This document shows positions 3,504 through 64,000 of a stretch of DNA of 64,000 bases, piece by piece (position 1 is the stretch's first letter; each line of letters begins with the position of its first letter). The stretch is taken from positions 62,001 to 126,000 of the forward strand of contig JAIUOE010000002.1 of NCBI GenBank assembly GCA_020161395.1, read 5' to 3'. Made by a program: the position numbers and the translations under genes. Below the pieces are notes generated by a model, which was not told where the DNA came from, made no database searches, and saw only the letters and a program-made list of their open reading frames with translations. Origin of the DNA: Bacteroidota bacterium. GTDB lineage: Bacteria; Bacteroidota; Ignavibacteria; Ignavibacteriales; Ignavibacteriaceae.

Positions 3504-3550
3504 TTCAGCTCATAGATCATAGTTCATAGATCATAGCTCCTAAATGATAG
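3504..3550. repeat. Heptad stop-codon tract behind the SDR gene
   Basis: Six to seven phased 7-nt units that on the minus strand read like CTATGAT or CTATGAA. The tract starts directly after the SDR stop codon (TAG, 3553-3551). Measured from that stop, TGA triplets fall at offsets 20, 27, 34, 41 and 46, covering all frames. Confidence 0.75.
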
Positions 3551-4223: not shown

Positions 4224-4258
4224 GAAAATTTCTAACGATTAAATATTAAAACTCATAA
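4224..4258. repeat. Heptad stop-codon tract behind the GT2 gene
   Basis: Five 7-nt units on the minus strand immediately after the GT2 stop (TAG, 4261-4259). The first four carry TGA, TAA, TAA and TAG at the same heptad position, at offsets 6, 13, 20 and 27 from the stop. The region is AT-rich, so chance is harder to exclude than at the other tracts. Confidence 0.5.
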
Positions 4259-9775: not shown

Positions 9776-9817
9776 AAAATAACGACTGACAGTCGAAGGC
9801 TGAAGGCTGAAATAAAA
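9769..9817. repeat. Heptad stop-codon tract, stop codon in register
   Basis: Seven plus-strand 7-nt units between convergent genes. The thioesterase's own TGA closes the first unit (AGGCTGA). Further units end in TAA at 9780 and TGA at 9787, 9801 and 9808; only the unit at 9790-9796 ends in CGA. The tract ends 2 nt before the carboxylase stop (TAA at 9822-9820, minus strand). Confidence 0.75.
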
Positions 9818-35765: not shown

Positions 35766-35834
35766 ATAATTCCAAAATATACTTTCAAAAACATCGATTT
35801 AACATAAAAAAACACGACTTTTTGGGTCACCAGA

Positions 35835-42641: not shown

Positions 42642-42682
42642 AACTTCAGCATTTCAGCCTTCATACTTCAGACTTCGCCTTG
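42642..42682. repeat. Heptad stop-codon tract behind the 42683 gene
   Basis: On the minus strand, directly after the TAG of the next gene, TGA falls at offsets 15, 22, 29 and 37 in units like GTATGAA and GGCTGAA. One spacing is 8 rather than 7. Confidence 0.65.
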
Positions 42683-43510
42683 CTATTCCTGCTTCTTCGT
42701 CATAAACCCTGTCTCATATTTTATATCAGTCTCTATGCTGTTCCTCAGCCCGGAATTTCCATAAACATTCGGGTACCGTTCGGTGATTTTTTGCATCAGG
42801 TCATTTTTGTAGGTGATATCGGTAATTGAGTAGAGCTGATCCCGCTCGAAGATGTAGATATATCTGTTTTGTGTCCATTTTCCCTGCCAGTCGAAAGAGT
42901 TTTCGATTCTTAAACCACCATCACGGTTGCTAAGAATTTCCCTTCCATTAAGATCATACGCAATTACCACATCTACTTTCTTAGTCTTGTGCAGGAACCG
43001 GTCTCCGGTTTTTTTGTAGTCACCCGCTTCGAGCAGCTTCCCTTTGTCGTAAACAAAATTGAAAACAATTTTATCTTCAGGAGGAGACTGGGTCAGAATG
43101 GAATTGATTTGTCCAAGAGTGTCACGGGTGTAACTTGACATTTTTGAGGCAGTTCCGGTTTTACAGGTGAATCCAACAAGCTTGTCACTGTCGTTATACG
43201 AAAATTCAAACGATTGTTTCGCAAAAACATCTCCCGGTTTTATTACCGACATGATTAGCAAACCTTTGGGAGAATAAGTGAAAATGGCAACTGTGTCACG
43301 ATCAATTACATGAAATTCTTTTGAGATTCCATTTTTCCTGATTGCAGCTATATGGTAGGACATCATCTTTTCCCTGTTCATGCTCCCCATGTCCAGGTAT
43401 CCCCAATCGTCACTGTTCAAACCCTGGGCGGGAATAAACTCCTGAGCGAGGGAGCCAAAGGTGAGCAACAAGACGAAAACGAATAAAAATTTACTATTAA
43501 ACTGTTTCAT
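42683..43510 (-). CDS. Secreted protein of unknown function
   Basis: 275 residues. Signal peptide MKQFNSKFLFVFVLLLTFGSLAQ. The mature part is mostly beta strand, with runs such as VAIFTYSPKGLLIM, FSYNDSDKLVGF, FNFVYDKGKLLEAGDY, IAYDLNGREIL and YIFERDQLYSITD. These repeats of about 25-30 residues recall YD/Rhs-like strands (F-Y-x-x-x-G/D-x-L), but no family is certain. 87 nt downstream of the 2-oxoglutarate dehydrogenase gene and separated from it by a terminator. Confidence 0.75.
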   Translation of the reverse strand: MKQFNSKFLFVFVLLLTFGSLAQEFIPAQGLNSDDWGYLDMGSMNREKMMSYHIAAIRKNGISKEFHVIDRDTVAIFTYSPKGLLIMSVIKPGDVFAKQSFEFSYNDSDKLVGFTCKTGTASKMSSYTRDTLGQINSILTQSPPEDKIVFNFVYDKGKLLEAGDYKKTGDRFLHKTKKVDVVIAYDLNGREILSNRDGGLRIENSFDWQGKWTQNRYIYIFERDQLYSITDITYKNDLMQKITERYPNVYGNSGLRNSIETDIKYETGFMTKKQE

Positions 43511-48980: not shown

Positions 48981-49024
48981 TGGAAACTTGCTATTGACTT
49001 TTAAGTTTCCATATGCTATTTTAG
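48981..49024 (+). promoter_or_regulatory. Promoter and operator of the TetR efflux operon
   Basis: Core promoter TTGACT (48994-48999), 17 bp, TATTTT (49017-49022). It is embedded in a perfect inverted repeat, TGGAAACTT (48981-48989) and AAGTTTCCA (49003-49011). Two more GAAAC/GTTTC half-sites follow at 49024 and 49046, reaching the start codon. A repressor bound here would cover the -35 box and spacer, the usual design for autorepression by the TetR protein. Confidence 0.7.
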
Positions 49025-49051
49025 AAACCGTAATTATTAATTTTAGTTTCC

Positions 49052-49684
49052 ATGATGCAAAAAACAGATAAAAAAGAGAAGATCGCCCTGTACGCCTTTT
49101 CCCTCTACAGAGAAAAGGGATTTGCGACCATTCCGATGGACGAGGTCGCGAAAGGGATGAAGATCAGTAAAAAAACGATTTACAAATACTACAATTCGAA
49201 AGAAGAACTTGTGGAAGCCGCTTTCAGATCGTTCATTTTCAAAGCATCTTCGGTGGTGGCTGAAATCATGCAGAAGGATGTCCCCTCGGTTGTGAAACTT
49301 GTCTTCATTCTAAAACACATGCTTACGGAAACCGCCATGATTTCCACTGTGCTTTTCAAGGAACTCCAGACGGAAATGCCTCTTCTTTGGAAGGATTTCG
49401 ATGATTTTCGAAGTGAGATGATGAGAAAAACCATTTCCAAAATTTACGCTCAGGGAAGAGATGAGGGTTATATAAAAGAATATCCCGTCATTTTTATCGT
49501 TACGATTCTCGTCGCATCCATAAGAGAAATACTAAAAAAAGAATTTCTCGACCAGTCGGGATATACGATTAATGAATCCCTTTCCCTCTTCTACAAATTT
49601 TTGTTCAACACAATTCTGACCCCAAAGGGGAAGGAAGAATTTTCAACCATGATCTATGGAGTTATACAGAATGAGAATATTTAA
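49052..49684 (+). CDS. TetR/AcrR-family repressor of the efflux operon
   Basis: 210 residues. N-terminal TetR HTH at about 10-57 (ALYAFSLYREKGFATIPMDEVAKGMKI, then SKKTIYKYYNSKEELV). The C-terminal helical ligand domain is of no named subfamily. ATG at 49052; an ATG one codon on is equally possible. Its end overlaps the HlyD gene by 14 nt. Probably senses a substrate of the downstream exporter. Confidence 0.92.
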   Translation: MMQKTDKKEKIALYAFSLYREKGFATIPMDEVAKGMKISKKTIYKYYNSKEELVEAAFRSFIFKASSVVAEIMQKDVPSVVKLVFILKHMLTETAMISTVLFKELQTEMPLLWKDFDDFRSEMMRKTISKIYAQGRDEGYIKEYPVIFIVTILVASIREILKKEFLDQSGYTINESLSLFYKFLFNTILTPKGKEEFSTMIYGVIQNENI

Positions 49685-50639
49685 GATTCTCTCAGTTTTA
49701 CTTGTTACCGGACTGATATTAACCGGATGTAAGGAAGAAACCGACACATCCAAAATTAAAGTCTCCGGGAATCTTGAGGCTATCAGCGTAACACTCTCTT
49801 CGCAAACACCCGGACTTGTCGTCAATTTCCCTTTTGAAGAAGGAGATGTGGTGAAGGAAAACGACACCATTGTCAAGATAGATGATTCCAATCTGCTTCT
49901 TCAACTCGCAAAAACGGGAGCTCTGATCGAAGGTGCCGACGCCCAATACAGTCTGCTTTTGAGCGGTGCCCGGAAAGAGGATATCAAACAGGCGGAGGAG
50001 GTGACATCACAACTCGAGGCAAATCTGCAACTCGCCGAATCTGATTTTGCCCGGATTAAAAACCTCTACGGTACCGGGTCAATGACCAAAAAGCAGTATG
50101 ATGATGCAGAAACCCGATTGAAAGTGCTGAAATCTCAACTGGATGCTGCAAGGGAAAATCTGCAGAAGGTGAAAACCATCGTCAGACCCGAAGAACTTAA
50201 ATCGGCAGCAGCCCGGAAAAAGGAGGCTTCTGCAAGTGCAGATATCCTCAAAAATGCCATTGAGAAATGTTTAGTCATTTCCCCCATCTCCGGTAAAATC
50301 GTAAAAAAATATGTAAAAAAAGGAGAGGTTGCCGGTGCCATGTCGTCTCTGGTTAAGATTTCCGCACAGGATGAACTCGATTTGATCGTCTATGTACAGG
50401 AAACAGATCTTGGCAAGGTAAAGACAGGTCAGCCCGTTGAAATAAAAATTGACAGCTACCCGAACAAATCCTACACAGGCAAGGTAATCTTCATTTCACC
50501 CGAAGCAGCCTTCACTCCCAAAAATATACAGACCGAGGATGAAAGAACCCGTCTCGTATATGAAGTGAAGGTCAGAGTAAAAAACCAGAATAATGAGCTA
50601 AAAGATGGAATGCCCGCTGATGCGTTTATCAAATTATAG
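49671..50639 (+). CDS. HlyD/MFP efflux adaptor, lipoprotein
   Basis: 322 residues from ATG 49671; five earlier in-frame codons do not fit a signal peptide. The signal ends in lipobox ILTGC (C20). First half-lipoyl/barrel strand VSGNLEAISVTLSSQTPGLVVNF, then a coiled-coil hairpin (about 80-170), a second barrel (CLVISPISGKIVKKYVKKGEV), and the beta-barrel DLIVYVQETDLGKVKTGQPVEI. Links the inner-membrane pump to TolC, as YbhG does for YbhFSR. Confidence 0.92.
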   Translation: MRIFKILSVLLVTGLILTGCKEETDTSKIKVSGNLEAISVTLSSQTPGLVVNFPFEEGDVVKENDTIVKIDDSNLLLQLAKTGALIEGADAQYSLLLSGARKEDIKQAEEVTSQLEANLQLAESDFARIKNLYGTGSMTKKQYDDAETRLKVLKSQLDAARENLQKVKTIVRPEELKSAAARKKEASASADILKNAIEKCLVISPISGKIVKKYVKKGEVAGAMSSLVKISAQDELDLIVYVQETDLGKVKTGQPVEIKIDSYPNKSYTGKVIFISPEAAFTPKNIQTEDERTRLVYEVKVRVKNQNNELKDGMPADAFIKL

Positions 50640-50695
50640 TTCATTCTCTCCTGACCGGTTTGAAAGCCGCCTGAAATGCCACGAGGTTCGATAAT

Positions 50696-51610
50696 ATGCC
50701 GGTGATAGAGATAACTTCGTTAAAAAAAACATACGGCGAGACTTTGGCTGTAAACTCGATTGACCTTTCAATTCAGGAAGGTGAAATGTTTGGTCTGGTG
50801 GGTCCTGACGGAGCAGGAAAAACCACCACGATGCGAATTCTTTGTGGACTCACGAAACCAACAAGCGGATCCGTAACCATTTTCAACAAGGAATTATCAA
50901 AAGCAAAAAAGGATATCCAAAACAATATCGGTTATCTCTCACAGAAGTTCTCCCTTTATGGCGACCTGACAGTCGATGAAAATATCAGGTTTTTTGCGAA
51001 CATTCATAATGTAAGGCATTTCGAGGAGAGACGGGATGAGTTGCTTGAACTGATGAGACTCATCAAATTCCGGGACAGATTTGCGGACAAACTATCGGGT
51101 GGAATGAAACAAAAGCTCGCACTTGCCTGCTCGTTGATTCACAAGCCAAAAATCTTGTTTCTCGATGAACCTACCACAGGGGTGGATCCTGTCTCCCGAA
51201 GAGATTTTTGGAAGATACTTTCCAGACTTCAGGCAGATGGCATCACAATTCTGCTCACTACTCCCTATCTCGATGAGGCAGAAAGATGCAACCGTATCGG
51301 ATTGATGAACAAAGGAGAGATAATCTCTCTCGGAAAGCCACAGGAAGTGAAAGATACGGTTGACATGTCTGTTCTGGAAATCTACTGTGATGATGTCAGA
51401 AAAGTCTCCCGGATTATCAGGGAAAACCTGAAATATGACACACAGGCATTCGGTGACAGAATTGATATTCTTTCACAAAATCCTGAAAATGTACTGGTCG
51501 ATGTGACAGCACTCTTAAAGAAACACGATCTGGACATTACAGAATCCAGAATCATTTCACCTTCACTCGAAAATATTTTTATCCACCTCGTAAGCAGTAA
51601 TTACAAGTAA
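50696..51610 (+). CDS. ABC efflux ATPase 1
   Basis: 304 residues. Walker A GPDGAGKTT (36-44), signature LSGGMKQ, Walker B ILFLDEPTTGVDP, then a switch region TPYLDEAERC in which the usual His is replaced by Pro. With ATPase 2 it corresponds to the two halves of a YbhF/YhiH-type double ATPase, here as two genes separated by tolC. Confidence 0.93.
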   Translation: MPVIEITSLKKTYGETLAVNSIDLSIQEGEMFGLVGPDGAGKTTTMRILCGLTKPTSGSVTIFNKELSKAKKDIQNNIGYLSQKFSLYGDLTVDENIRFFANIHNVRHFEERRDELLELMRLIKFRDRFADKLSGGMKQKLALACSLIHKPKILFLDEPTTGVDPVSRRDFWKILSRLQADGITILLTTPYLDEAERCNRIGLMNKGEIISLGKPQEVKDTVDMSVLEIYCDDVRKVSRIIRENLKYDTQAFGDRIDILSQNPENVLVDVTALLKKHDLDITESRIISPSLENIFIHLVSSNYK

Positions 51611-51614
51611 TGAT

Positions 51615-52937
51615 ATGAAAAAAAATAATTTATCAACCATACCGTTGTTTTTTCTCTTTTTTGCAATCAGTGTTAATGCACAGACACTCAGTCTTGAAGA
51701 CTGCATCAAAGCCGGGTTGGACAACAGTCGTCAGCTTGCCCTGAACAACTCAGCGATACAACAAAATCTGGGAAAAGTAAAGGAAGTGGCAGCAATGAAA
51801 CTTCCGCAGTTAAAATTTCTCGCATCGTATTCAAGACTGAGCGACATACCAAATTCAGAGATAAAGCTCCCGTTTTTACCCTCTCCTGTGGTTTTACAGG
51901 AGCCGGTACTTAACAACTATGCTCTCAGGCTAAGTCTGTCTCAGCCTCTTTTTACGGGACACCGGTTATCGTCTCAGGAGAAGAGTGTTGAGATTTCGAC
52001 CGAGGCTTTGAGGGCTGATAACGAAATAATAAAAAACGATGAAGCCATAAAAACAATTGCGGCATATTACAATCTGGCAGCAGCGAATGAACAACTTGCC
52101 GTAATTGAAGAAAATATAACAACCCTGAAGAAACGGTTGTCTGATGCGAACGACTTCTACAAAAATGGACTGATTACCAGAAACGACATCCTAAAAATTG
52201 AAGTGCAGATATCCAATACCCTTTCTAAAAAAATTGACGCTGAAACTGCAATCCTGGCTGCCAAAGCACAATTGAACCTTGCGATTGGAAGAAGTGTCGA
52301 CTCACCAATCGAAATCAACAAGTTCTCTTGGGAGGAGCCCGCGGCTGCCATTGACTTCGCGACTCTCAAGGAATCAGCGGAAGCCAACAGAGGTGAATTT
52401 AAAACACTCGCCATCAAACATAAAGTATTGGAAGAGAACATGAATGTAGCAAAAGCCGGTTACCTTCCGGAAATTTATCTCGGCTCGAACCTCTACTACA
52501 CCAATCCCTCCCAAAGAATTTTCCCACAAAAGGACGAATTCCGTGCAACATGGGATGTCTCCTTAAGTCTTCAGTGGAATGTCTGGGACTGGGGTGCCAC
52601 TTCTGCAAAAGTGGATCAGGCGACTGAAAACATCAAGAGTCTCGGCACAACAAAGCAACAGCTTTCTGATGCGGTGTCCAATGAAGTCTATCAAAATTAC
52701 CTCCAGTATACCTCTGCGAGGTCGAAATTGAAAAATCTTGAGACCACCCTGGAACAGGCAAATGAGAACTACAGGGTAACACTCGAAAACTTTAATGCTC
52801 AGGTGGCGACGGCTGCAGATCTGCTTGAGGCGGACAACTCCCTTTTCGCAGCAAAAACAAGCCTTCAACTTGCAAAAATCAGTATTGTAATGTCGGGGTA
52901 TAAACTTCTGAAATCAACAGGAAAGAGGCTGTATTAA
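51615..52937 (+). CDS. TolC-family outer-membrane channel
   Basis: 440 residues. Signal peptide MKKNNLSTIPLFFLFFAISVNAQ. Two repeats of long helices with outer-membrane strands: SLEDCIKAGLDNSRQLALNNSAI and, later, SLSLQWNVWDWGATSAKVDQA. Forms the outer-membrane exit duct. Four bases after ATPase 1; its stop shares one base with the start of ATPase 2. Confidence 0.92.
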   Translation: MKKNNLSTIPLFFLFFAISVNAQTLSLEDCIKAGLDNSRQLALNNSAIQQNLGKVKEVAAMKLPQLKFLASYSRLSDIPNSEIKLPFLPSPVVLQEPVLNNYALRLSLSQPLFTGHRLSSQEKSVEISTEALRADNEIIKNDEAIKTIAAYYNLAAANEQLAVIEENITTLKKRLSDANDFYKNGLITRNDILKIEVQISNTLSKKIDAETAILAAKAQLNLAIGRSVDSPIEINKFSWEEPAAAIDFATLKESAEANRGEFKTLAIKHKVLEENMNVAKAGYLPEIYLGSNLYYTNPSQRIFPQKDEFRATWDVSLSLQWNVWDWGATSAKVDQATENIKSLGTTKQQLSDAVSNEVYQNYLQYTSARSKLKNLETTLEQANENYRVTLENFNAQVATAADLLEADNSLFAAKTSLQLAKISIVMSGYKLLKSTGKRLY

Positions 52938-53866
52938 TGCATTACGCCATTGAAGTAAACCGGCTCACAAAAAAATTTGGCGATTTTGTCTCCGTCGATG
53001 AGGTTAGCTTTTCAATTCCACAAGGCGAGATTTTTGGATTTCTGGGTGCAAATGGTGCCGGAAAATCTACCACAATCAAGATGCTTTGCGGATTGCTTGA
53101 ACCAACCTCGGGGGATGCTTTGGTTGGTGGTTACAGCATCATGAATGAGCCCGAAAAAGTGAAAGAAAACATCGGCTACATGTCCCAAAAGTTCAGCCTT
53201 TACAACGACCTTTCAGTCGAAGAGAATATCAACTTTTTCGGAGGTGTTTACGGTCTGGAAAGAAGCGAACTTGCTGAAAGGAAAAAATGGGCTCTCGAAG
53301 TTTCCTTTTTACGGGAAAGAGAGAAGACAGTTACAGGAAGTCTGCCCGGAGGCATAAAACAGCGGCTCGCACTGGCAACCGCAGTAATCCACAAACCAAA
53401 AATCGTATTTCTTGATGAACCCACAAGTGGTGTTGATCCAATATCACGAAGAGCTTTCTGGGAACTGATCAACTCACTTTCAGAGGAAGGAATTACTGTT
53501 TTTGTGACCACACACTACCTTGAAGAAGCGGAATATTGTGCCAATATCATCCTGATTAATGCAGGGAAAATAATTGCCGAAGGCACTCCAACAGAGTTGA
53601 AACAGAACCACATAAAATCAAGGGTACTGGAAATCACTTCGAACAACAGTGTGGAGTTGATGAACAAAATTTCTGAATCACAACTCAATGGTGAAATCTC
53701 CATTTTTGGAGATAAAATACACTTCATTCCTGCGGATAACACTACATCAAATGTTGACACAATGAGGTTCCTCAACACGAATTTCTCTAATTTTGATCTG
53801 AACATTTCCGAGATACTCCCCTCTCTCGAGGATGTTTTTATTCATCTCATAGAAAAAAAATATTGA
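52937..53866 (+). CDS. ABC efflux ATPase 2
   Basis: 309 residues. Walker A GANGAGKST (37-45), Walker B IVFLDEPTSGVDP and switch His in THYLEEAE. The signature is LPGGIKQRLAL, with Pro in place of Ser (LSGG), a variant also seen in YbhF-type ATPases (LPLGWKQ). Start shares a base with the tolC stop. Confidence 0.93.
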   Translation: MHYAIEVNRLTKKFGDFVSVDEVSFSIPQGEIFGFLGANGAGKSTTIKMLCGLLEPTSGDALVGGYSIMNEPEKVKENIGYMSQKFSLYNDLSVEENINFFGGVYGLERSELAERKKWALEVSFLREREKTVTGSLPGGIKQRLALATAVIHKPKIVFLDEPTSGVDPISRRAFWELINSLSEEGITVFVTTHYLEEAEYCANIILINAGKIIAEGTPTELKQNHIKSRVLEITSNNSVELMNKISESQLNGEISIFGDKIHFIPADNTTSNVDTMRFLNTNFSNFDLNISEILPSLEDVFIHLIEKKY

Positions 53867-53867
53867 T

Positions 53868-55001
53868 ATGCTAAAAACTGTTTTTGCAATCGCAAACAAG
53901 GAATTCAAACATCTGACCCGGGACCGAAGACTCTTCGGAATTTTGATGTTCTTCCCCGTGTTTCTTCTGGCATTCTTTGGTTATGCCGTTAATTTTGATG
54001 TGAAGCAAATTAAAACTGCGGTAATCGACCTTGACGGTTCCCCTTCGAGCCGCAGGTTTATCAGCGAGATGACCTCTACAGAGTATTTTGCAAAACCACT
54101 CTACGCACACGACATGTCATCGATTAGGCACCTGCTTGACAGCAAAACAGTTATTGCTGTTATTACGATACCTGAGAAATTTGAGGAAGAACTAAAACGG
54201 GGTGAAAAAACAACTGTTCAATACCTGATTGACGGAGTGGATGCAAACACTGCAGTAATTGTATCCAATTATATTGAAGCTGCAATCGGGTTGTTCAATT
54301 CCAAATACCGGGATGAGGAACTCGCAAAAACAGGATTGAAAGTTAATCCCCCTGTTAAAATTTCGCCTAAAATACTTTATAATCCGGAGTTGAAAAGCTC
54401 CCTCTTCTTTGTGCCGGGTCTGATTTCTATGATTCTGGTAATAACTGCCGTGGTAAGCGTCTCCCTCTCACTCGTAAGAGAGGAAGAAAGAAACACCATT
54501 GAGCAGATTCGAGTCTCTCCCGTTTCTTCCTTTTCATTGCTGATTGGCAAGATAACCCCTTACCTGCTTCTGGCATACCTGAACGCAGTGATGATACTGA
54601 TTGTCGGGTATTTTCTCTTTGGTGTCGAAACAAAAGGAAGCTATTTCGATCTGGTTTACACAACATTCGTGTTTCTTCTTGCCTGCACCTCACTTGGAAT
54701 TCTGGTTTCAGTAATCTCAGACAACTCACAGGTTGCATTTACACTGGGACAGTTCATATCCCTTCTGCCGGCACTTCTTTTGTCGGGATTTGTATTCCAG
54801 ATAGACAGCATGCCACCTTTGATCCAGATTCTTACAAACATTACACCGACTAAATTTTTTAACCGGATACTAAGAGCCATTATCCTTCGGGGAACGGGAC
54901 TCCCCACATTCTACAAAGACATGATAAGTCTGTTTATTTATACCGGTGTAACACTCGGACTTTCGCTCATTATCGCCAAAGTAAAAGAGAGGAAAGCCTG
55001 A
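53868..55001 (+). CDS. ABC-2 permease 1 (YbhS/YbhR-like)
   Basis: 377 residues. One N-terminal helix (about 22-42), an extracytoplasmic domain (about 45-180), then five helices. Conserved VREEERNTIEQIRVSPVSSFSLLIGK loop before the core helices. One base after ATPase 2 and 1 base before permease 2, so the two permeases form a heterodimer. Confidence 0.92.
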   Translation: MLKTVFAIANKEFKHLTRDRRLFGILMFFPVFLLAFFGYAVNFDVKQIKTAVIDLDGSPSSRRFISEMTSTEYFAKPLYAHDMSSIRHLLDSKTVIAVITIPEKFEEELKRGEKTTVQYLIDGVDANTAVIVSNYIEAAIGLFNSKYRDEELAKTGLKVNPPVKISPKILYNPELKSSLFFVPGLISMILVITAVVSVSLSLVREEERNTIEQIRVSPVSSFSLLIGKITPYLLLAYLNAVMILIVGYFLFGVETKGSYFDLVYTTFVFLLACTSLGILVSVISDNSQVAFTLGQFISLLPALLLSGFVFQIDSMPPLIQILTNITPTKFFNRILRAIILRGTGLPTFYKDMISLFIYTGVTLGLSLIIAKVKERKA

Positions 55002-55002
55002 C

Positions 55003-56133
55003 ATGAAAACAGTTTTGCGAATCATTTTGAAGGAGTTCCAGCAATTCAGGCGGGATCCAAAAATGTTCGGCATTATTCTCGTCGCACCTGTGATGCAATT
55101 GATTTTTCTCGGGTACGCTGCCACACTCGATATAAAGAGCGTAAAAACAATTGTCTATGATACGGACAGGTCGGAAATGAGCCGAAAACTGATCAGGGAA
55201 TTTGAAGGCAGCACCTATTTCATTGTAAACGACCATCTCTTTAACTACAACGATGTTTACAAAAAAATGGATGAGGGGAATACAATTGCTGCGATTATCA
55301 TTCCGAAAGACTTCGAAAAGGATATAAACCGGGGTGAATCAGCCACGATTCAGGCAATTTTCAACGGGAGTGACGGTAACACTGCATCAATCGCTGCAGG
55401 ATATGTATCCAAAGTCATCGGAAAATTTGCGGGAAATGTAGCCGGCGACAAACTCAAACTGCGTGGTATCACCAGACTCCCCTCGGGTGAAGTCACTTCA
55501 CAGTACAGAATCTGGTATAATCCCGCTGTTGAGTCGAGGTACTTTATGGTGCCATCCATCGTAGGGCTTCTCCTCAGTCTCATTACCCTTTTGCTGACCT
55601 CTCTCGCCATTGTCAAGGAGAAAGAAATAGGTACCCTTGAACAGTTGATTGTTACCCCCATCAAGTCATGGCAACTCATCGCAGGGAAACTGATTCCATT
55701 TGTTATGCTTGGATTTGTTACGGTTGTTCTGGTGCTTACGGCAATGAGGGTGATATTTGGAATTGAGGTAAAAGGGGATGTTGCATTTCTTTTTTTCTCG
55801 GCATTTATCTACATTCTGTCAACTCTGGGGCTTGGATTGCTTGTATCGACATTCAGCAAAACCCAGCAACAGGCAATGATGGTTGCCACATTCGGGGTAA
55901 TGATGCCGCTAATTTTCCTCTCGGGTTTCTCCTTCCCCGTCGAGAACATGCCTGACATCTTCCAGAAAATCAGCATAATTATTCCGTTGAAATACTTCAT
56001 CCTGATAATTCGCGGTGTTATTCTGAAAGGCTCCGGTTTCGCTGAACACTGGCAGGATGTCCTCGCTATGTTTATCATCGGGACCGTAATCCTCGGTATC
56101 AGCATCCTTCGGTTTAAGAAGAGAATATCTTAA
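55003..56133 (+). CDS. ABC-2 permease 2 (YbhS/YbhR-like)
   Basis: 376 residues with the same layout as permease 1 (N-terminal helix about 20-42, periplasmic domain, five helices; loop VKEKEIGTLEQLIVTPIKSWQLIAGK). Together with HlyD, TolC and two ATPases it forms a complete tripartite exporter. Relatives handle cationic drugs or heavy lipids; the cargo is unknown. Last gene of the operon; its TAA lies in an inverted repeat. Confidence 0.92.
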   Translation: MKTVLRIILKEFQQFRRDPKMFGIILVAPVMQLIFLGYAATLDIKSVKTIVYDTDRSEMSRKLIREFEGSTYFIVNDHLFNYNDVYKKMDEGNTIAAIIIPKDFEKDINRGESATIQAIFNGSDGNTASIAAGYVSKVIGKFAGNVAGDKLKLRGITRLPSGEVTSQYRIWYNPAVESRYFMVPSIVGLLLSLITLLLTSLAIVKEKEIGTLEQLIVTPIKSWQLIAGKLIPFVMLGFVTVVLVLTAMRVIFGIEVKGDVAFLFFSAFIYILSTLGLGLLVSTFSKTQQQAMMVATFGVMMPLIFLSGFSFPVENMPDIFQKISIIIPLKYFILIIRGVILKGSGFAEHWQDVLAMFIIGTVILGISILRFKKRIS

Positions 56134-56197
56134 TTATGAGTTATAAATTATGATTTATTAGTTTAAACTCATAATTAATAAGTAATAACTCATAATT
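56132..56197. repeat. Heptad tract with 13-bp inverted repeat between convergent stops
   Basis: AATTATGAGTTAT (56132-56144) and its exact complement (56185-56197) flank nine 7-nt units. Each arm overlaps the stop codon of one convergent gene. May work as a bidirectional terminator or as stop tracts for both genes. Confidence 0.75.
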
Positions 56198-57182
56198 ACT
56201 TAATTCTGTATCCAAACTTTGTGACATACCTTGAGTCGAACTCTTCCTGGTAGGTGGAGGTGAAATAGGTACCGAAGAGACCGTAACCGCCGGAGATGTT
56301 GGTGAAGACCTGCTCATCAAGCCGGAGACTGAAGTTGTCGAGGAAACCATTCACGCTTGAGTAGTAGAACGACAGGGGTGCATCGTACTCGGTTGATTCG
56401 AATATTACATGAAGTGCGCGGAACTGTGATTTGTCCTCAACACCCTCGGATATTTTGTTCATTGCCCAGTCGAATGAGGCAAGTTCATAGGAGGCTTCCT
56501 CGTCTCTGTTTGCGACAGGATAAATAGGTGTTTCCACACCGTTTCTGTTTATCACTCTTAGCGGTACTTCTATCGAGCCAGGCACTTCCCTGTTGTTCAC
56601 TAACCTCGAATAGTATATTTTCATCTTGGGAAATGTAAGGTTCAACTCCTGTGAAGTCCAGTAGAAAGTCCAGTTTTTACCATATTTAAATGGATCGACA
56701 TCAGTCGTGAATCCGCGCGGATACGGGATGGAGTTTTCGTAATTAAGGTACTGAGGTACTTTTGTTCCGGAGGTGAGCACTTTACCGTTTTGCAACCTAG
56801 CAGTAATTGTTATGGTGTCGTTTGCATAAAGTGGAATCGCCTTCCCAAAGTAAAATTTCAGCGGTCCTTTATATCTTGAAGAATCTTTACGGGCAACCAT
56901 GGAATCTTTCAGTATGTAAGTATCCCCTCTGAATTTAATTTCCACCCGGGCACCGGCAATTTCCGGGTCTTCGGTGTTCAAAAGCGGATCTGTACCGGGA
57001 GCGTCATATACTTTTGCCAGGATTACTTTGGGGACAACGAACTTGCCAATCTCCTGACCCGGTGTAATTGAATAAAGGACATAGCCTTCCTTAAATTCAG
57101 ATCTGGGAGAGAAACTTTCCTCACACCCCGTCAACATAACAGTGAAGAAAAGAATGCTTAATGTCGATAGAATCTTTTTCAT
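56196..57182 (-). CDS. DUF4249 lipoprotein
   Basis: 328 residues. Lipobox MLTGC (C20). The mature region matches DUF4249, which starts with a beta-strand module (EGYVLYSITPGQEI) and has a central IAGARVEIKFRGDTYIL. Such proteins sit beside TonB receptors and are thought to help capture the substrate at the outer surface. Separated from the receptor by one base, so co-transcribed as its second gene. Confidence 0.88.
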   Translation of the reverse strand: MKKILSTLSILFFTVMLTGCEESFSPRSEFKEGYVLYSITPGQEIGKFVVPKVILAKVYDAPGTDPLLNTEDPEIAGARVEIKFRGDTYILKDSMVARKDSSRYKGPLKFYFGKAIPLYANDTITITARLQNGKVLTSGTKVPQYLNYENSIPYPRGFTTDVDPFKYGKNWTFYWTSQELNLTFPKMKIYYSRLVNNREVPGSIEVPLRVINRNGVETPIYPVANRDEEASYELASFDWAMNKISEGVEDKSQFRALHVIFESTEYDAPLSFYYSSVNGFLDNFSLRLDEQVFTNISGGYGLFGTYFTSTYQEEFDSRYVTKFGYRIK

Positions 57183-57183
57183 G

Positions 57184-59484
57184 TTAAAACTCGGCTTTCA
57201 CGAAAATTGCAGGGAGAATCGGGAGTTGATCTATTCTCTTTCCGGTTTTTTTGTCAAAATAGTAGATGTTTGCGCGATTGTAGGCATTTATTACACTCGC
57301 ACCAATCGTAAAGTCTGCAAAAGAAGTCGAGAACTTTTTGGTGATCGAAACATCAAGTCTGTGATACCAGGGCAGTCTGCCGGAATTCTTGGTATCATAG
57401 ATAAACTGTGGTTCATAGTTGTTGAAAATGTCAATCGGCGTTGTACCGTCCAGTATGAGCTTGTTGAAAAATCCCGAAATCGGTGTAAACGGCATTCCTG
57501 ATGAAAGCACCCAATTAGCGGTGAATTGCCAGTTGTCACCCGGATTGATACCTGCAAGAATACTCAATGAATGCCGGACATCGTACCTTGGCGGATAAGT
57601 GAGGTCTTTTGCCTTTTTCTCAGCCCAGCCAAGTGCGTAGGAGGCTCTCGCATAAAAAATGCTTCCGTCAAATTTAAGGGACGACTCAATTCCGTAGGAA
57701 ACTCCCTCAATATTCTTGAAATCGAACTGTATCGATGTAAACTTCTTCTCGTTCACTTCCATCAGATTCGACATTACTTTGTAGTAAGCCTCGACTTCAA
57801 GAAGGAATTTATCGGTAAAGTAGGATGTGAAACCGGCAATAAAATGTGTCGCTTCTGCTGCGGTGATGTTGTCGGGAATGATAACCCAAGGTTCGAAAAC
57901 AGAGATGAGCTCATCTTCGTTGGCAAGAGAAACCATCTCCTGTGAGTATCTGCCGAATGCAAATTTAAAGATCATCAATCGGTTTAGCAGGTATGTCAGA
58001 CTTATTCTGGGCTCAAAAAGGAAAGGTCTTTTTTCCGACATTGAAATAAAATTGAACCGCATTCCAAGATCGAATCCGACATCATCCCAACGGAAAAACC
58101 GGTAGTTAAAATAGCCGGCGAGAGCATTTTTTGTGGTTTTGAAGTCAATTTCCCGCTCCAACTGATTCACCTGTTTCAAAGAAGTGGAAATATTTTTATT
58201 CTGAAGACCAAAAAGGAGCTGATCCTTGCTGTCATAGATGTATGCAAAATCGGCATTTATTGTGAAATCAGTTACATTATTCTCACGGGGCTTCGAACCG
58301 CTGAAGTTTGGCTCCACCTTAGCCATGTAATGCGAAAATGAGAAAATAACATCGGAGACCAATGGTGAACCATCCCAAATCTTGCTCCATTTCAGTCCAC
58401 CGATATTGTTTCTGATGTGATAATCTTCAAGCAAAGGGTCGCTGTTGATTACCTGATCGCTGCTTAAAAAAAGATTTGCACTGAATTTGCTGTTGGGATC
58501 GATATACGCCGGTGAGTAATTCACTTTAAGCGACAGATCGTAAAAATCGAACGGGGTCTCTTTGTTGTTAAGGTACTTTTTCAGTATCCCCGACCAGTAA
58601 CTTTTTCTTCCCGTCAACAGAAATGATCCATCTGGAATGGGTCCCTCGGCTGCCACTTTTCCTGAAAGGAGACCTGCCTGTATGGTCCCCTGATAAAAAT
58701 TCTTGTTTCCGTCACGGGTAATGATATTTAGAATCGAGGAAAGCCTGTCCCCCATAGCGGGCGTAAAGCCTCCTTTGTAAAATTCGAGTGATGAAATAAT
58801 TTCAGGATCAATTACCGAAAAAATTCCGAGGGCATGGAAGGGGTTATATACGGTTGCACCGTTAAGCAGCACAAGGTTTTGATCGCTGCCACCACCTCTT
58901 ACATAATATTTCGCTGTTGCATCTCCGGTGGTGTTCACTCCCGGATTATTTTGTATCACGCGAAAGATATCAGCCTCGGCTCCTACGGGTTGAAGTTCGA
59001 TATCCTTGACTGAAATCTTTTCCAGCCCCAAATCTGTTTCATTTTCACGGGCATTTCTTTCCCCCACAATAGTTACTTCATTTATGTTCACTGAAGAGCG
59101 GGAGAGTTTCAGATTAAGTTCGTTGATGACACCCTGCTTTATCTCGATCTCAACTTCTTTTTTGATATATCCAATGTACGAGAAAAGCACTGTTCGCTTC
59201 CCTGCGGGAACAGACGGAATGAAATAGTAACCCGAGCTGTTGGTGGAAGCACCAAGTTTAGTGGACTTGATCGTTACATTCGCATACGGAATAATCTCAC
59301 CACTCAATGAGTCGGTCACGATACCCCGGAGACTACCCTGAGACTGAGCCGACACAGGCAGAAAAAACAGAAGAGAAAACAACATTAAAAATAATGCATG
59401 CATTATTCCGGGTTTTTGTTTTGTTGATTTATATGACGGGGTGGATTTATCAATTGAGGCAGAAAGAGCAGGAAATGAAGACAT
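57184..59484 (-). CDS. TonB-dependent receptor with carboxypeptidase-like N-domain
   Basis: 766 residues if it starts at 59484; an ATG at 59403 (MHALFLMLFSLLFFLPVSAQ) gives a better signal peptide and may be the true start. After the signal comes a carboxypeptidase-regulatory-like domain (about 50-125, GSLRGIVTDSLSGEIIPYAN), a plug (about 140-250, VGAEADIFRVIQNNPGVNTT, YYVRGGGSDQNLVLLNG) and a 22-strand barrel ending in a receptor-type C-terminus (FVKAEF). Imports a substrate across the outer membrane using TonB energy; the substrate is unknown. Confidence 0.92.
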   Translation of the reverse strand: MSSFPALSASIDKSTPSYKSTKQKPGIMHALFLMLFSLLFFLPVSAQSQGSLRGIVTDSLSGEIIPYANVTIKSTKLGASTNSSGYYFIPSVPAGKRTVLFSYIGYIKKEVEIEIKQGVINELNLKLSRSSVNINEVTIVGERNARENETDLGLEKISVKDIELQPVGAEADIFRVIQNNPGVNTTGDATAKYYVRGGGSDQNLVLLNGATVYNPFHALGIFSVIDPEIISSLEFYKGGFTPAMGDRLSSILNIITRDGNKNFYQGTIQAGLLSGKVAAEGPIPDGSFLLTGRKSYWSGILKKYLNNKETPFDFYDLSLKVNYSPAYIDPNSKFSANLFLSSDQVINSDPLLEDYHIRNNIGGLKWSKIWDGSPLVSDVIFSFSHYMAKVEPNFSGSKPRENNVTDFTINADFAYIYDSKDQLLFGLQNKNISTSLKQVNQLEREIDFKTTKNALAGYFNYRFFRWDDVGFDLGMRFNFISMSEKRPFLFEPRISLTYLLNRLMIFKFAFGRYSQEMVSLANEDELISVFEPWVIIPDNITAAEATHFIAGFTSYFTDKFLLEVEAYYKVMSNLMEVNEKKFTSIQFDFKNIEGVSYGIESSLKFDGSIFYARASYALGWAEKKAKDLTYPPRYDVRHSLSILAGINPGDNWQFTANWVLSSGMPFTPISGFFNKLILDGTTPIDIFNNYEPQFIYDTKNSGRLPWYHRLDVSITKKFSTSFADFTIGASVINAYNRANIYYFDKKTGKRIDQLPILPAIFVKAEF

Positions 59485-59680
59485 GAAAAATTTTCTTTAA
59501 TATTTTATACAGGTTTGAAATCAAAATTCCAAACTTCGCAGATTGCATTTACAAAAAATAAATAATTAATATCCCCAATTTAGTGATAAATTTTGATTCA
59601 GAGGGACTGTTCGATATCACGATCCACTGATTATCAGACATTCTTAAAATTCTTCCCCATCACGATTATCGTGTTCAATA

Positions 59681-59715
59681 AAAAAGGCTGCCCCTCTCGA
59701 GACAGCCTTTTTTTT
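59681..59715 (-). terminator. Terminator AAAAAGGCTG/CAGCCTTTTT
   Basis: 10-bp stem with a 12-nt loop and a T run, downstream of the 59783 gene; works on both strands by sequence. The 200 bp to its left (59485-59680) hold no gene. Confidence 0.85.
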
Positions 59716-59719
59716 AAAT

Positions 59720-59782
59720 ATTAGGTATTAGGTATAAGTTATTATTTTTCATAACTCATACTTCAAACCTCATACTTCAAAA
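59720..59782. repeat. Heptad stop-codon tract behind the 59783 gene
   Basis: Nine 7-nt units in exact phase. On the minus strand the first five after the stop (TAA, 59785-59783) carry TGA at offsets 6, 13, 20, 27 and 34; the last four run on as AT-rich units such as ACCTAAT. The clearest of the six tracts. Confidence 0.8.
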
Positions 59783-61084
59783 TTATTTCATAAGAAGCAT
59801 CTTGTTTGTAAGTCTTACATTGTTTGAAACAACTTCATAGATGTAAGTACCGGAAGCAAGTTTCGATGCATCAAATGTGTAAGCATACATTCCTGAATTC
59901 AGGTTTTCGCTTACCAGGGTGGCAACTTCTTTACCAAGGATATCATAAACCTTCAAGGTTGTGAAACCTGCACTCTTCAATGAGAATCTGATCTCTGTTG
60001 AAGGGTTGAACGGGTTAGGATAATTCTGGAAAAGTTTAAAATCTTCGACATTCATGCCAAGGTCTTTAATGCTTGATGGATTTGGATTGATGAATCTTTC
60101 CATCGGTGGATAGTTTGATGCACCAAAAGCGGTAACATAAGCTGTATCACCTGAAGGTGAGAAACCTATACCCCGAGGTCTTGCATCAACAGCACCGGGA
60201 TACATATTCCATGACAAGCTGTCCTTGATTTCGCCGGAAACAGCATCATAAGCATACCAGGTTCTGTTTGACCAGAAAGTTGTAGCACCAGGGTATCTGT
60301 TTGGAAGATCGTTGTTTGAACCGGCAGATGCCCAGAGAAGATTGTATTTTCTATTCCATGCAATAGATTCGCAATCAAAACCTTTAAGGATGGTATCTGT
60401 CACTGTGAAAGGTGAAAATTCATCAGGTCTTGTATATTTAAAGATTGCATGATTGGTATAGCCAGCCCAGTAAATTGTGTTTCCGTCAGCGCCAACTTCG
60501 AATCCTCTTGAGAAACCAACTGATGAATCAACTGCGTTTCCGAGGAAATTGAAAGAAGGATCCCAAATTTTGATCGGGTTTCCACCGACAACATTTGCCG
60601 AGAAGAAATTTCCATTGCCGTCTACAGCGTTTGCAACACCTGAGGCTCCAACGGTATTTCTGAATTTACCTTTGGAAAGACCGGTTTTGTAGTCAATCTT
60701 GTGAGTAAAATCAAAGAATGTGGCGAGGATATCACCATCAGGATGTGCTTTCAAACCACGGCCTGTGTTACCAACAAGGGAGTCAGGGCTGACGCCGGGT
60801 CCGACGAAAACCTTTATTGGTGAGAATGATGCCTGTGTTCCATCCTGGTTGAAGCAATAAAGAGCTCCGCATTTAACCCATGCATTACCGTTCCAAATTG
60901 AATCGGCAAGGTTTGAGTAAAGGCTGAACCATATTCTGCCGTACGGGTCAACAGCCACACCGTGACCGCCGGAACCAACACGGAAGCGAGTTGTATCAGG
61001 GAAGTATCCGTTGAAGGTCCAGCCTTGAGCGAATGCTCCCGATGTCAGCAACATGAATAAAAGAAGTGCAGACAATTTTTTCAT
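59783..61084 (-). CDS. T9SS-sorted secreted protein, propeller-like
   Basis: 433 residues. Signal peptide MKKLSALLLFMLLTSGAFAQ. The body is an NHL/YVTN-like propeller (HGVAVDPYGRIWFSLYS, NAVDGNGNFFSANV, RGIGFSPSGDTAYVTAFG). The C-terminal 86 residues are the type IX sorting domain, with NYPNPFNP at 354. Function unknown. Codes in the same direction as the IPT lipoprotein and PorV-like genes upstream. Confidence 0.9.
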   Translation of the reverse strand: MKKLSALLLFMLLTSGAFAQGWTFNGYFPDTTRFRVGSGGHGVAVDPYGRIWFSLYSNLADSIWNGNAWVKCGALYCFNQDGTQASFSPIKVFVGPGVSPDSLVGNTGRGLKAHPDGDILATFFDFTHKIDYKTGLSKGKFRNTVGASGVANAVDGNGNFFSANVVGGNPIKIWDPSFNFLGNAVDSSVGFSRGFEVGADGNTIYWAGYTNHAIFKYTRPDEFSPFTVTDTILKGFDCESIAWNRKYNLLWASAGSNNDLPNRYPGATTFWSNRTWYAYDAVSGEIKDSLSWNMYPGAVDARPRGIGFSPSGDTAYVTAFGASNYPPMERFINPNPSSIKDLGMNVEDFKLFQNYPNPFNPSTEIRFSLKSAGFTTLKVYDILGKEVATLVSENLNSGMYAYTFDASKLASGTYIYEVVSNNVRLTNKMLLMK

Positions 61085-61152
61085 TTTGTATCTCCTAAGT
61101 GAGTTGATGTTGAGTTGTTAAAATAAGCATTTAACATTAAAAATCCATTTAA

Positions 61153-62406
61153 TTATTTTCTACCGGAATATGCAGCACCCTGAACACCCATTAATACCTT
61201 CACTATTGTCTGGTCTACAGCTTTCCCGGATACGGTGCCTGAAGATCTTGTGTAGTAAAGATTAGTACCAGTATCCCATGTCAGGAACAATGCATTCAAA
61301 GGAAGGAATACGCCCGGATAGTGAACTGATACATTCCCCGCAGGGGTGATCTTCAAAATTGGGGCAACATTGTTCGTCGCCAGGAATATATTACCTGTGA
61401 CATCCATCGTAAACTGATTGATATACACATTATATCCAACAGCAGTACCAAGATTGACAACTGTTTGAGGATTGGCTCCGTCAATATCACCGTTAGCATC
61501 CATGGGGAATTTGTAAAGAACTCCGGATGAGTCCTTCTTTACCGCAACATATACAGCGTTGTTATAAACTCTGATTGCTGTTGCGTTGGCAGCAAATGCA
61601 TAAGATTTCAGAACCTTTGCAGGACTTACTCTGAAAAGTGATGCGTTGTCGCCACATGCCCAGATATTTCCGGCATCATCAAAATCGATATCGAGGATCT
61701 TCACGGTAGCCGGAGTAATGGCAAACCATGAGGCTATTGCAGCGCCTTCAGTCATTCTGAAAATGGCTCTAAGTGAATTTCTTACACCATAGAGTGCACC
61801 GTCAGGTCCGATTTTGAGACTGGTAAAGACATAACCGCCACCAACTGAAGGGGTAAAGTTTGTCTTCACGCCGGCAGGTGTAACTTTAACAATGTTATTT
61901 GTCACACCGCTTGTGAGGAGCGAAAAATACAAGTTTCCGTTTTTATCGAATTCAAGAGCCGATGGCTGTTCGAAACTCTGGAAAGCCAAAGGAAACTGGG
62001 CTGCCTGAATCAGTTTTACAACAACAGTATTGCTGAAAGCCAGGGCACCTTTAACTCTTACCTTCACGAGGGCATTCTGTCCTGCTTCAGTAACAACTCC
62101 GGCTCTCACCTTAAGTTGTGTAGCTGTGGCTGAAAGAATGGTACCCGTGCCTGTATTGAAATACACTGTGTTTTCTTCAGGGACTGTCGAGAAATTTGAT
62201 CCGTTGATAGTTATTTCAGTAATACCGCTGTAACCGCTGTCAGGAGTAACCGTCGAAATGACGGGATCAGGTTTAACGGCAACATTAGGATCAAACAGAG
62301 TGGTTGTTTTATCGTTTCCACACCCGGAGAAGAGTATCATAGCAGATATCAGAATATATGCCGGGAGCAGAACTGTTTTAATTTTATTCATCAAAATTGC
62401 TTTCAT
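61153..62406 (-). CDS. IPT/TIG-domain lipoprotein, propeller-like
   Basis: 417 residues. Lipobox LFSGC (C29 from the first ATG; an ATG five codons on, at 62391, is possible). An IPT/TIG immunoglobulin-like domain is seen at about 45-130 (PVISTVTPDSGYSGITEITINGSNF). The rest has NHL/YVTN-like repeats (ALEFDKNGNLYFSLL, DIDFDDAGNIWACGDNASLF). Probably faces the cell surface; substrate unknown. Near the PorV-like gene (20-nt gap) and the T9SS protein. Confidence 0.85.
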   Translation of the reverse strand: MKAILMNKIKTVLLPAYILISAMILFSGCGNDKTTTLFDPNVAVKPDPVISTVTPDSGYSGITEITINGSNFSTVPEENTVYFNTGTGTILSATATQLKVRAGVVTEAGQNALVKVRVKGALAFSNTVVVKLIQAAQFPLAFQSFEQPSALEFDKNGNLYFSLLTSGVTNNIVKVTPAGVKTNFTPSVGGGYVFTSLKIGPDGALYGVRNSLRAIFRMTEGAAIASWFAITPATVKILDIDFDDAGNIWACGDNASLFRVSPAKVLKSYAFAANATAIRVYNNAVYVAVKKDSSGVLYKFPMDANGDIDGANPQTVVNLGTAVGYNVYINQFTMDVTGNIFLATNNVAPILKITPAGNVSVHYPGVFLPLNALFLTWDTGTNLYYTRSSGTVSGKAVDQTIVKVLMGVQGAAYSGRK

Positions 62407-62426
62407 TTTTTTAACCCGTCTGATAG

Positions 62427-63443
62427 TTAATACTCAAATCTGACTGTGAAATTGTGAACCGAGCTAAATACTCCAAATGGGGTATAAGCATAATCGACCG
62501 CCATTTTGATCCCTTCCAGTTCAGGTCTGAGACCAAAGCCGAGACTGTATTTTTTCTCGTCATTAGGAAATGAGACACCTCCACGGAGATAAACCCATTT
62601 CATAAAGCTGTATTCACCACCGATGTATAACTGTTCAGGATAATCTCTCGGGTGGGAAACATCCACAGCCAGCAGGAATGAATGCTGTTTCGCCAGTTCG
62701 GGGAAAAGGTCGATCATGTTCATCGCAACACCAATTTTGAAGTTGAGTGGCAACTGAAATCCGTCTTCCTTGTATTTGATCTCGGTCGAGAAATTTCTTA
62801 CGCTCATACCAAAATTGAGGCTTTTGAATCCTGTTTTGTAGAAAATACCGAAATCGAATGCCAATGTCGAAAGGGAATTCTCTTCAGTAACCATCTGACC
62901 GGTATTGTCGAATGTAATAGGGCTCACACCAAGATTCTGGCGGACATATTTAACCTGACCTCCGACGCTGAATTTTTCGGACAGGGCATTTGCATAACCA
63001 ACACCTATAGAGATTGCTGTCGGGCTGAATGTACCGACATCTCTGTAACCTCTTTCAGTGCTTCCATCAACCACCGTCATCAGCAGATCGCCGTAATTCA
63101 CAGCCATTACAGTTGCACCAAATTTTCCCCATGCGGGATCACTCGGTTGAAACGAAAAGCTTGAATAAACATAGTTGATGTCGGCAATCCATTTATTAAC
63201 GCCAGCCGATACATCCATTTTACTGTCGCCAAAAGCAAGTGTAGCAGGGTTATAAAAGAGTGCCGCTGAATTTGCAGTAACAGCAGTAAATGTTTCACCC
63301 ATACCGGTTGCTCTTGCATCGGTTGGGGCAGATAAAAACTTCATTCCAGACTGTGCTAACTTGGTCCGTTGACCAAATGTCTCAGACTGGAGAAAGCATA
63401 CGGCAGCCAAAATAATAGCCGTAAATAATAGATACTTTTTCAT
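62427..63443 (-). CDS. PorV/PorQ-family outer-membrane protein
   Basis: 338 residues from ATG 63443, where GGAAAAGAAT precedes the start; a longer frame would overlap the upstream gene. Signal peptide MKKYLLFTAIILAAVCFLQ. Diagnostic motif ARATGMGETFTAVTANSAALFYNPA; a beta-barrel C-terminus ends in FTVRFEY. In T9SS, PorV shuttles cargo from the translocon to the attachment complex. Next to several T9SS cargo genes, so a role in their export is likely. Confidence 0.88.
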   Translation of the reverse strand: MKKYLLFTAIILAAVCFLQSETFGQRTKLAQSGMKFLSAPTDARATGMGETFTAVTANSAALFYNPATLAFGDSKMDVSAGVNKWIADINYVYSSFSFQPSDPAWGKFGATVMAVNYGDLLMTVVDGSTERGYRDVGTFSPTAISIGVGYANALSEKFSVGGQVKYVRQNLGVSPITFDNTGQMVTEENSLSTLAFDFGIFYKTGFKSLNFGMSVRNFSTEIKYKEDGFQLPLNFKIGVAMNMIDLFPELAKQHSFLLAVDVSHPRDYPEQLYIGGEYSFMKWVYLRGGVSFPNDEKKYSLGFGLRPELEGIKMAVDYAYTPFGVFSSVHNFTVRFEY

Positions 63444-63465
63444 ATTCTTTTCCGTCCCGGTTAAG

Positions 63466-64000
63466 TTAGCGAATGATAACAAATTTAACGGTGTGTTTTT
63501 CACCCGTCTTTGTGTCAGTTATTACACCGATATAAACACCACTGACAACAATCTGTCCGGCAGATGTAACCTGATTCCAGAATTCATCTCCTGATCCGTC
63601 GTTGTGTTCAATGGTCTTGATGAGTTCACCCATCTCGGTGTATATTTTTATAGTACATTCGCCGGGGATGTCATAAAAAGCTATTCTGTCGCCTGCTGCC
63701 CCGCCCGGGAATCTGACTTTGTCAGGAATGGCACTCGAATTATAAGGATTCGGCACTACTCTGATTTCGCTGAGGGCGTTACCGGCTTTTCTTTTCAATC
63801 TTGCAGGATCGTAAGATTGTGAATAGTAGCGGGAACTCTTGGCACCGTTATTGCCGACACATGTCAGGTAATAGTAGTAATCGAATCCTCTCGAAAGCGA
63901 GGTATCGTTAAATGATGTTGAACCGGCAGGAAGCGTTTTAATAAGATGATATGTTGAGTCAACATTTGCTGATGCTCTCCATACCTCAAAACCTGCAGGA
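63466..64000 (-). CDS. Secreted protein with PNPYN-type C-terminal domain, partial
   Basis: The C-terminal 177 residues; the gene enters from the right edge in the same frame. A fibronectin-like segment comes first (FEVWRASANVDSTYHLIKTL, then SRGFDYYYYLTCV), then a sorting-like domain that begins VVPNPYNSS rather than NYPNPFNP and ends HTVKFVIIR. Upstream of the PorV-like gene by 22 nt, likely one operon. Confidence 0.85.
   Translation of the reverse strand, partial: PAGFEVWRASANVDSTYHLIKTLPAGSTSFNDTSLSRGFDYYYYLTCVGNNGAKSSRYYSQSYDPARLKRKAGNALSEIRVVPNPYNSSAIPDKVRFPGGAAGDRIAFYDIPGECTIKIYTEMGELIKTIEHNDGSGDEFWNQVTSAGQIVVSGVYIGVITDTKTGEKHTVKFVIIR

Follow-up and report, generated by a model that had tools for sequence, protein, structure and literature searches.

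Tandem arrays with 7- and 8-nt units often begin at stop codons, mostly in one strand direction, in three genomes of the Ignavibacteriaceae

REP/BIME elements have a palindromic unit and are mobilised by a Y1 transposase. Among long simple sequence repeats, heptamers have been reported as the commonest in many bacteria, lying mostly outside genes, and slippage has been proposed for them (Mrazek 2007, as cited in PMC4679880 and PMC4692102). The kind of repeat described here is already known from two systems, the strand-biased gene-edge heptamers (Rehm et al. 2015, PMC4692102) and the TAACTGA direct repeats of Beggiatoaceae (MacGregor 2015, PMC4679880). In the sections of Rehm et al. drawn on here, degenerate 7-nt units, GGGAATC in Xanthomonas and GGGGA(C/T)T in Nostoc PCC 7120, recur in tandem and are mostly intergenic. 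They tend to lie on the sense strand at most 50 bp from a stop codon, sometimes overlapping the stop, or, by a further rule, on the antisense strand at most 50 bp ahead of an ORF, and few are found between divergent genes. Inverted pairs number 70 and 75 in two Xanthomonas, repeats between the same genes in sister species vary in length and sequence, and the G runs form quadruplexes. By our own reading, neither consensus unit contains a stop triplet in any frame. The TAACTGA repeats, in the sections of MacGregor used here, form intergenic heptamer arrays that are patchy across phyla. One of their strands holds stops in every frame, forward repeats being necessarily at ORF ends; most of these arrays lie a few nucleotides upstream of start codons, and they have a single, nearly invariant unit. 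A structured element located right behind the stop codon, the ribosome termination structure, has also been described in bacteria (PMC7518266). In searches of open-licence papers we found no account of AT-rich 7- to 9-nt families anchored at stop codons, nor of the exchange of families at fixed gene ends.

The DNA analysed was a stretch of 64,000 nt (the window) from a Bacteroidota bacterium of the Ignavibacteriaceae (contig JAIUOE010000002.1). A preliminary description had reported 7-nt tracts at six loci in this window and had mentioned 7-nt repeats of heterocystous cyanobacteria, with no known link to stop codons; an association of such repeats with gene ends had by then been published (PMC4692102). 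Each array was scored for 7-nt periodicity and compared with lags 4-15 except 7 and 14, for which the best score was 13. The scores of the whole arrays were as follows.

59714-59784: score 22.2, well above other lags
3507-3542: score 18.0, well above other lags
56134-56195: score 15.4, well above other lags
42653-42676: score 10.4, not above the best other-lag segments
9795-9811: score 10, not above the best other-lag segments
4233-4260: score 7.8, weak

The component features, with the strand of each, were as follows.

59749..59782 (-): forward arm behind gene 59783-61084 (-), GTTTGAA/GTATGAG units directly after the TAA stop
59714..59744 (+): mirror-image counterpart of 59749..59782 within one array, TATTAGG units as read on the + strand
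59680..59717 (-): intrinsic-terminator-like hairpin and T run beyond the array, read by eye from the sequence; G009, a sister species, has the same
56134..56165 (+): forward arm of the TTATGAG family, following the stop of gene 55063-56133 (+)
56166..56195 (-): mirror-image arm to 56134..56165, following the stop of the convergent gene 56196-57182 (-)
3507..3542 (-): CTATGAT-family array following gene 3551-4204 (-)
4233..4258 (-): remnant, weak by its 7-nt score, following gene 4259-5389 (-)
9795..9811 (+): short array, GAAGGCT x2.4, 19 nt past the stop of gene 9353-9775 (+), which is convergent with 9820-11475 (-)
42653..42676 (-): short array of GTCTGAA/GTATGAA/GGCTGAA units following gene 42683-43510 (-)

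Three of the six reported tracts were therefore strong, two did not rise above the level of other lags and one was weak, while the class as a whole exceeded shuffled sequence (see below). The G009 ortholog of the weak site at 4233-4260 carried a clear array, with a score of 13.2. All six window arrays (6/6) had a stop codon within about 20 nt, overlaps included, and in all six most units held a stop triplet on the strand of the adjoining gene. The arrays at 56134-56195 and 59714-59782 were mirror-image structures of two arms, with half of each facing the opposite way. The window also contained a perfect 12-nt tandem repeat, ACTCGCTGCCAA, in 2.1 copies between called genes at 35742-35766, which is unrelated to the heptads.

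Sampling covered three genomes: the genome of the window (80 stretches, each of 20 kb, which together with the window amount to 1.66 Mb), G009, which belongs to the same genus and has 89% identity over window positions 49000-64000 (40 stretches, 0.8 Mb), and G007, from another genus of the same family (20 stretches, 0.4 Mb). Some own-genome stretches were picked for known matches to the GTTTGAA pattern, which biases array density, and the tests of placement and direction are conditional on the presence of an array. Genes were called with a custom codon-score script, which placed 90% of the bases of the first 464 kb in genes, and intergenic arrays were taken at a score of at least 12. The first 464 kb contained 12 such arrays, compared with a mean of 0.05 and a maximum of 1 in 20 dinucleotide shuffles. 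The intergenic arrays at lags 7, 8 and 9 numbered 49, 30 and 17 in the own genome, 35, 16 and 5 in G009, and 33, 0 and 1 in G007. No other lag between 4 and 15, with multiples of 7 left out, gave more than 7 arrays, the maximum being lag 11 in G009; the counts at lags 5, 10 and 11 were 2, 2 and 5 (own), 0, 0 and 7 (G009) and 0, 1 and 0 (G007). Across lags 4-15, unit length in the sampled genomes peaked at 7 nt. Within genes of the own genome, lags 7, 8 and 9 gave only 4, 2 and 6 arrays, so that at lag 7 the sample held 49 intergenic arrays versus 4 in genes. As a class, the arrays are real. Degenerate 9-nt families of the CGCAAAG type and the ACACGGATT type were also observed in intergenic DNA (L030:18143-18261, L032:9608-9710, L090:620-875), some of them as mirror-image pairs, and their tie to stops was less clear.

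The arrays start at stop codons far above random placement, and mostly in one strand direction. Arrays of 7-8 nt lay from -30 to +25 nt of a stop in 57/79 cases in the own genome, 36/51 in G009 and 20/33 in G007, compared with means of 29.6, 19.4 and 8.7 and maxima of 43, 28 and 16 when placed at random in the same gaps (2000 runs). Near starts there were 6, 1 and 2 arrays versus 17.3, 9.4 and 2.5 by chance. When the lag-7 arrays of the three genomes were oriented by their G-richer strand, the gene edge on the 5' side was a stop in 95 of 124; these 95 had a median distance to the stop of 0 nt versus 133 nt on the other side, with 80 nearer the stop edge and 72 within 30 nt of the stop. The 29 arrays that had a start as their 5' edge lay at a median of 92 nt from it, 18 being nearer the start and 1 within 30 nt. 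The notion that an array fills the gap to any 5' gene edge thus held at stops and not at starts in these three genomes, unless promoter and leader constitute the boundary.

Unit families and their forward strands were named post hoc, which affects the counts by G-richer strand and the cross-phylum set less. By family words, arrays at stops faced in the sense direction in 30/32 cases for GTTTGAA/GTATGAG, 43/45 for TTATGAG/CTATGAT, 16/22 for the octamer and 5/9 for the palindromic 8C family, whose forward direction is arbitrary and which had one undecided case among its 10. By the rule that the forward strand has more G than C, which orients the octamer poorly, 68/79 lag-7 arrays at most 30 nt from a stop faced sense in the three genomes, as did 29/36 of those beginning past the stop (29 versus 7); near starts, the rule gave 1 antisense and 3 sense. 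A cross-phylum set comprised at least 115 contigs from many phyla with four TGARGTWTGA units. Among the matches listed, 33/36 arrays near a stop were sense, including 20/22 of those starting past the stop (20 versus 2), and 15/20 of those near a start only were antisense versus 5 sense; these start-side arrays lay closer, at a median of 18.5 nt among the matches listed. The TGARGTWTGA pattern was also found in 19 stretches in viral contigs. Mirror pairs were of the forward-reverse order in 36 cases versus 6 reverse-forward, and gaps between same-strand genes held 49 forward and 18 reverse single arms together with 17 forward-reverse and 6 reverse-forward pairs. Tract-free 3' flanks had no G/C skew (own genome G 0.184, C 0.183); the direction of the arrays is therefore not background, and the base composition of gene ends was ruled out as its source. 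The counts of placement and direction in the three genomes bear out the location at gene ends and the strand preference given in the preliminary description, and the excess next to stop codons, for which it had proposed a scan of this genome and its relatives against random sites and shuffles, is real. Its opinion that the tracts were not a single dispersed repeat was correct in part, since several dispersed families were found.

Comparison of the own genome with G009 yielded 266 orthologous gene ends, of which 265 were classified, convergent gaps counting twice. At the 22 ends with a strong tract here, G009 had a strong tract in 16, a weak one in 4 and none in 2, and a strong tract was present in G009 only at 4 further ends. 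The unit was often exchanged between the sisters at the same gene end. The end of gene 59783-61084 has GTTTGAA/GTATGAG here versus GTATTAG in G009, L048 11799 has TTATGAC/TTATGAG here versus CTATGAA/CTATGAT, and at L032 7278/8459 both mirror arms were altered together. Truncation of genes by the arrays was rejected, since the C-terminal ends of orthologs coincide: where the gap was 40 nt or more, the unaligned tails at the C-terminus differed in 0/24 pairs with a tract versus 5/109 without. Stop codons, at the same gap size, differed in 2/14 pairs with a tract in both, 3/10 with a tract in one and 18/109 with none. Stop type matched unit family (own genome: GTTTGAA with TGA 15/20, octamer with TAA 9/12, mixed other units with TAG 9/13; G009: 2/6, 6/6 and 7/8, respectively). 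Overlap of many arrays with the stop produces part of this match by construction; what remains suggests that the first unit was often built on the stop triplet.

The pattern TGARGTWTGARGTWTGA was present in 8/61 genomes of the family. The own genus accounts for three of these (3/4 of its genomes) and a second genus for two (2/2), and the other three are isolated genomes that have 1-2 matches. Four copies of TTATGAR were present in 18/296 genomes of the phylum. The octamer pattern matched 145 times in the own genome and 81 times in G009, overlapping matches counted, and was absent from the remaining 59/61 family genomes, two more of the genus included. The families are patchily distributed, and at least one of them appears to be young. 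At L034:5575-7212, convergent genes are about 1.6 kb apart here and adjacent in G009 (L240) with a GTTTGAA array between them, so that this array stands at a site of DNA gain or loss. At L040:16575-17207 the array overlaps the last codon, and the last residue is I here and G in G009, where the unit family differs. Gene 59783-61084 encodes a secretion-tag protein (Por_Secre_tail) with a C-terminal end like KMILMK; such ends, identified by regular expression only, occurred in 11/67 tract genes versus 8/120 controls (p 0.044), and a link to secretion-tag genes was judged too weak to build on.

One explanation for the arrays is a translational safety net, in which 7- or 8-nt periods put stops in all frames and so catch read-through and frameshifted ribosomes. 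We consider this highly improbable, although stops in every frame, as the preliminary description had claimed, were indeed found. In the three genomes, tract genes were followed by closure of all frames at a median of 30.5/24/18 nt, compared with 84/75.5/94 nt for other genes with gaps of at least 60 nt, and 7-nt units covered all frames more often than did position-permuted units (0.64 versus 0.53, 0.80 versus 0.51 and 0.86 versus 0.75). The fraction of units retaining a fixed-phase stop was 0.77 in sense at stops versus 0.70 elsewhere, a small, non-significant excess (p 0.14); for the octamer the values were 0.96 versus 0.92 (p 0.60). However, the number of stops per unit was near the permuted level, both for 7-nt units (0.89 versus 0.71, 0.88 versus 0.69 and 0.90 versus 0.96; median permutation p 0.40, 0.40 and 0.78) and for 8-nt units (0.65 versus 0.65 and 0.52 versus 0.57). 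With 0.91 stops per unit on the sense strand and 1.02 on the antisense strand, the TTATGAG family is nonetheless oriented 43:2, the arm of the 8C family that adjoins the stop codon is the stop-poor one, and the 9-nt arrays covered all frames in 0/6 cases. Unit lengths of 5 and 10 would serve equally well yet are nearly absent, with 11 uncommon, and the stop-free GGGAATC repeats behave alike in the sections of PMC4692102 drawn on here. Selection for stop triplets was rejected on the unit permutation, the family with stops on both strands and the retention in sense versus elsewhere. Stop triplets, at most in slight excess, do not account for the direction of the arrays, and they look like passengers rather than the reason for the arrays. 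The same evidence, including the stop-free precedent (PMC4692102), speaks against the earlier claim that the stops are the purpose: there is no lack of tracts beside stop codons, but the stop triplets in them are about as frequent as in shuffled heptads. Among the roles previously offered, a mutational by-product fits best, whereas stop-catching is not supported by the unit stops or by the TTATGAG orientation.

The arrays, above all the mirror pairs, might instead fold or bind a protein as an RNA element at the 3' end, thereby affecting mRNA stability, reducing re-initiation or stopping transcription. Such a role is unlikely in our estimation. Consistent with it are the 36 forward-reverse pairs, the joint change of both arms at L032 7278/8459, the structured element described past the stop in bacteria (PMC7518266) and the folding of the 100 nt behind the stop, where tract genes had a median z of -2.12 (34/67 below -2) versus -1.04 in controls (43/120 below -2), in a comparison that includes terminators, which possibly add to the folding. 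Against it, single arms outnumber pairs in same-strand gaps, a hairpin needs no single direction, and separate terminators lie past the array. A strict search found a terminator for 10/71, 3/41 and 6/22 tract genes in the own genome, G009 and G007 (19/134 arrays overall), in 19/19 cases beyond the array, so that none of these placed the GC-rich hairpin and T run of an intrinsic terminator in the array itself; within 150 nt, the median place of the terminator was 65.5/46/76 nt behind tract genes versus 33.5/27/22 nt behind others. It is also very doubtful that the pattern is an artefact of visibility, in which the stop-bearing direction ends the frames entering it and thus gives an apparent gene end, the other direction being read as coding and lost. 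This would agree with the 35/120 cross-phylum tracts that lie in open frames among the matches listed, with the forward TAACTGA repeats necessarily at ORF ends (PMC4679880, in the sections used here), with the overlap of about half of the near-stop arrays with the stop or last codons and with the last residue varying with the unit at L040 16575. Few arrays, however, were found in own-genome genes (4/2/6 at lags 7/8/9), and the C-terminal ends of orthologs were unshifted (0/24 with a tract versus 5/109 without). The direction also held for arrays past the stop (29 versus 7, and 20 versus 2 among the cross-phylum matches listed) and for the family whose two strands both carry stops.

With moderate confidence, we favour a model of repeat spread, in which several lineage-specific simple-repeat families, of 7 but also 8 and 9 nt, multiply in the little-constrained stretch past the stop codon. 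Slippage or template switching during DNA synthesis, within or between arrays, would create the copies and homogenise them, and purifying selection would exclude arrays from coding sequence and, in these genomes, from gene starts. Template switching would account for mirror arms and for the two arms changing jointly. A directional copying step or strand-specific tolerance is the probable reason why the G-richer strand lies in sense past the stop. The association of stop type with family is not predicted by this model, and the persistence of tracts at 20/22 orthologous ends could also mean function. A broader proposal, which we put forward only tentatively, is that a sequence-indifferent directional copying process common to many phyla installs 7- to 8-nt arrays past stops with the G-richer strand in sense, each lineage having its own families. 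On this view, the GGGAATC, TAACTGA and GTTTGAA repeats would all stem from a single, so far unrecognised process or class of elements, and would not be quadruplex or stop-codon devices. Since the placement is common to stop-free families with G runs and to families without G runs, neither stops nor quadruplexes explain it, and neither these nor background skew serves as a general cause of array direction.

The AT-rich arrays, mostly without G runs, obey the stop-side, one-direction rule of the published G-rich ones, and the shared rule is thereby separated from quadruplexes and from stop codons, the two causes that have been proposed. The sister species provide many natural before-and-after pairs for tracing the copying mechanism. 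For annotators, the stop triplets within such arrays need not be functional.

Compared with the known systems, as far as the sections cited describe them, the arrays resemble the heptamers of Rehm et al. (PMC4692102) in having degenerate, mostly intergenic 7-nt units (here 49 versus 4 at lag 7), in lying near the stop with the G-richer strand in sense (here 68/79) and in forming inverted pairs (here 36 forward-reverse and 6 reverse-forward), and they share with the Xanthomonas GGGAATC repeats the variation in length and sequence at shared sites. Occasional overlap with the stop and scarcity between divergent genes are further traits in common with the repeats of Rehm et al. They differ in that most families, as read from their units, lack G runs (TTATGAG, CTATGAT, GTTTGAA and the octamer), with GG or GGG present in the GGCTGAA variant, in that several unit families and also lengths of 8 and 9 coexist, and in that the antisense rule upstream of ORFs is not clear in the three genomes. 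Like the TAACTGA repeats (PMC4679880), they are intergenic heptamer arrays with stops in all frames on one strand and a patchy distribution across phyla; unlike them, the units differ and arrays near starts number 6/1/2 versus 17.3/9.4/2.5 by chance. The position behind the stop, and the ability of some arrays to fold, recall the ribosome termination structure (PMC7518266), which is defined by RNA structure and not by repeats, whereas many of the arrays here are single-armed. With the long simple repeats of Mrazek 2007 (as cited in PMC4679880 and PMC4692102) they share tandem units of 5-11 nt, a peak at 7 and a location mostly outside genes, whereas anchoring at stop codons and direction, seen in the arrays described here, do not figure in the cited descriptions of those repeats.
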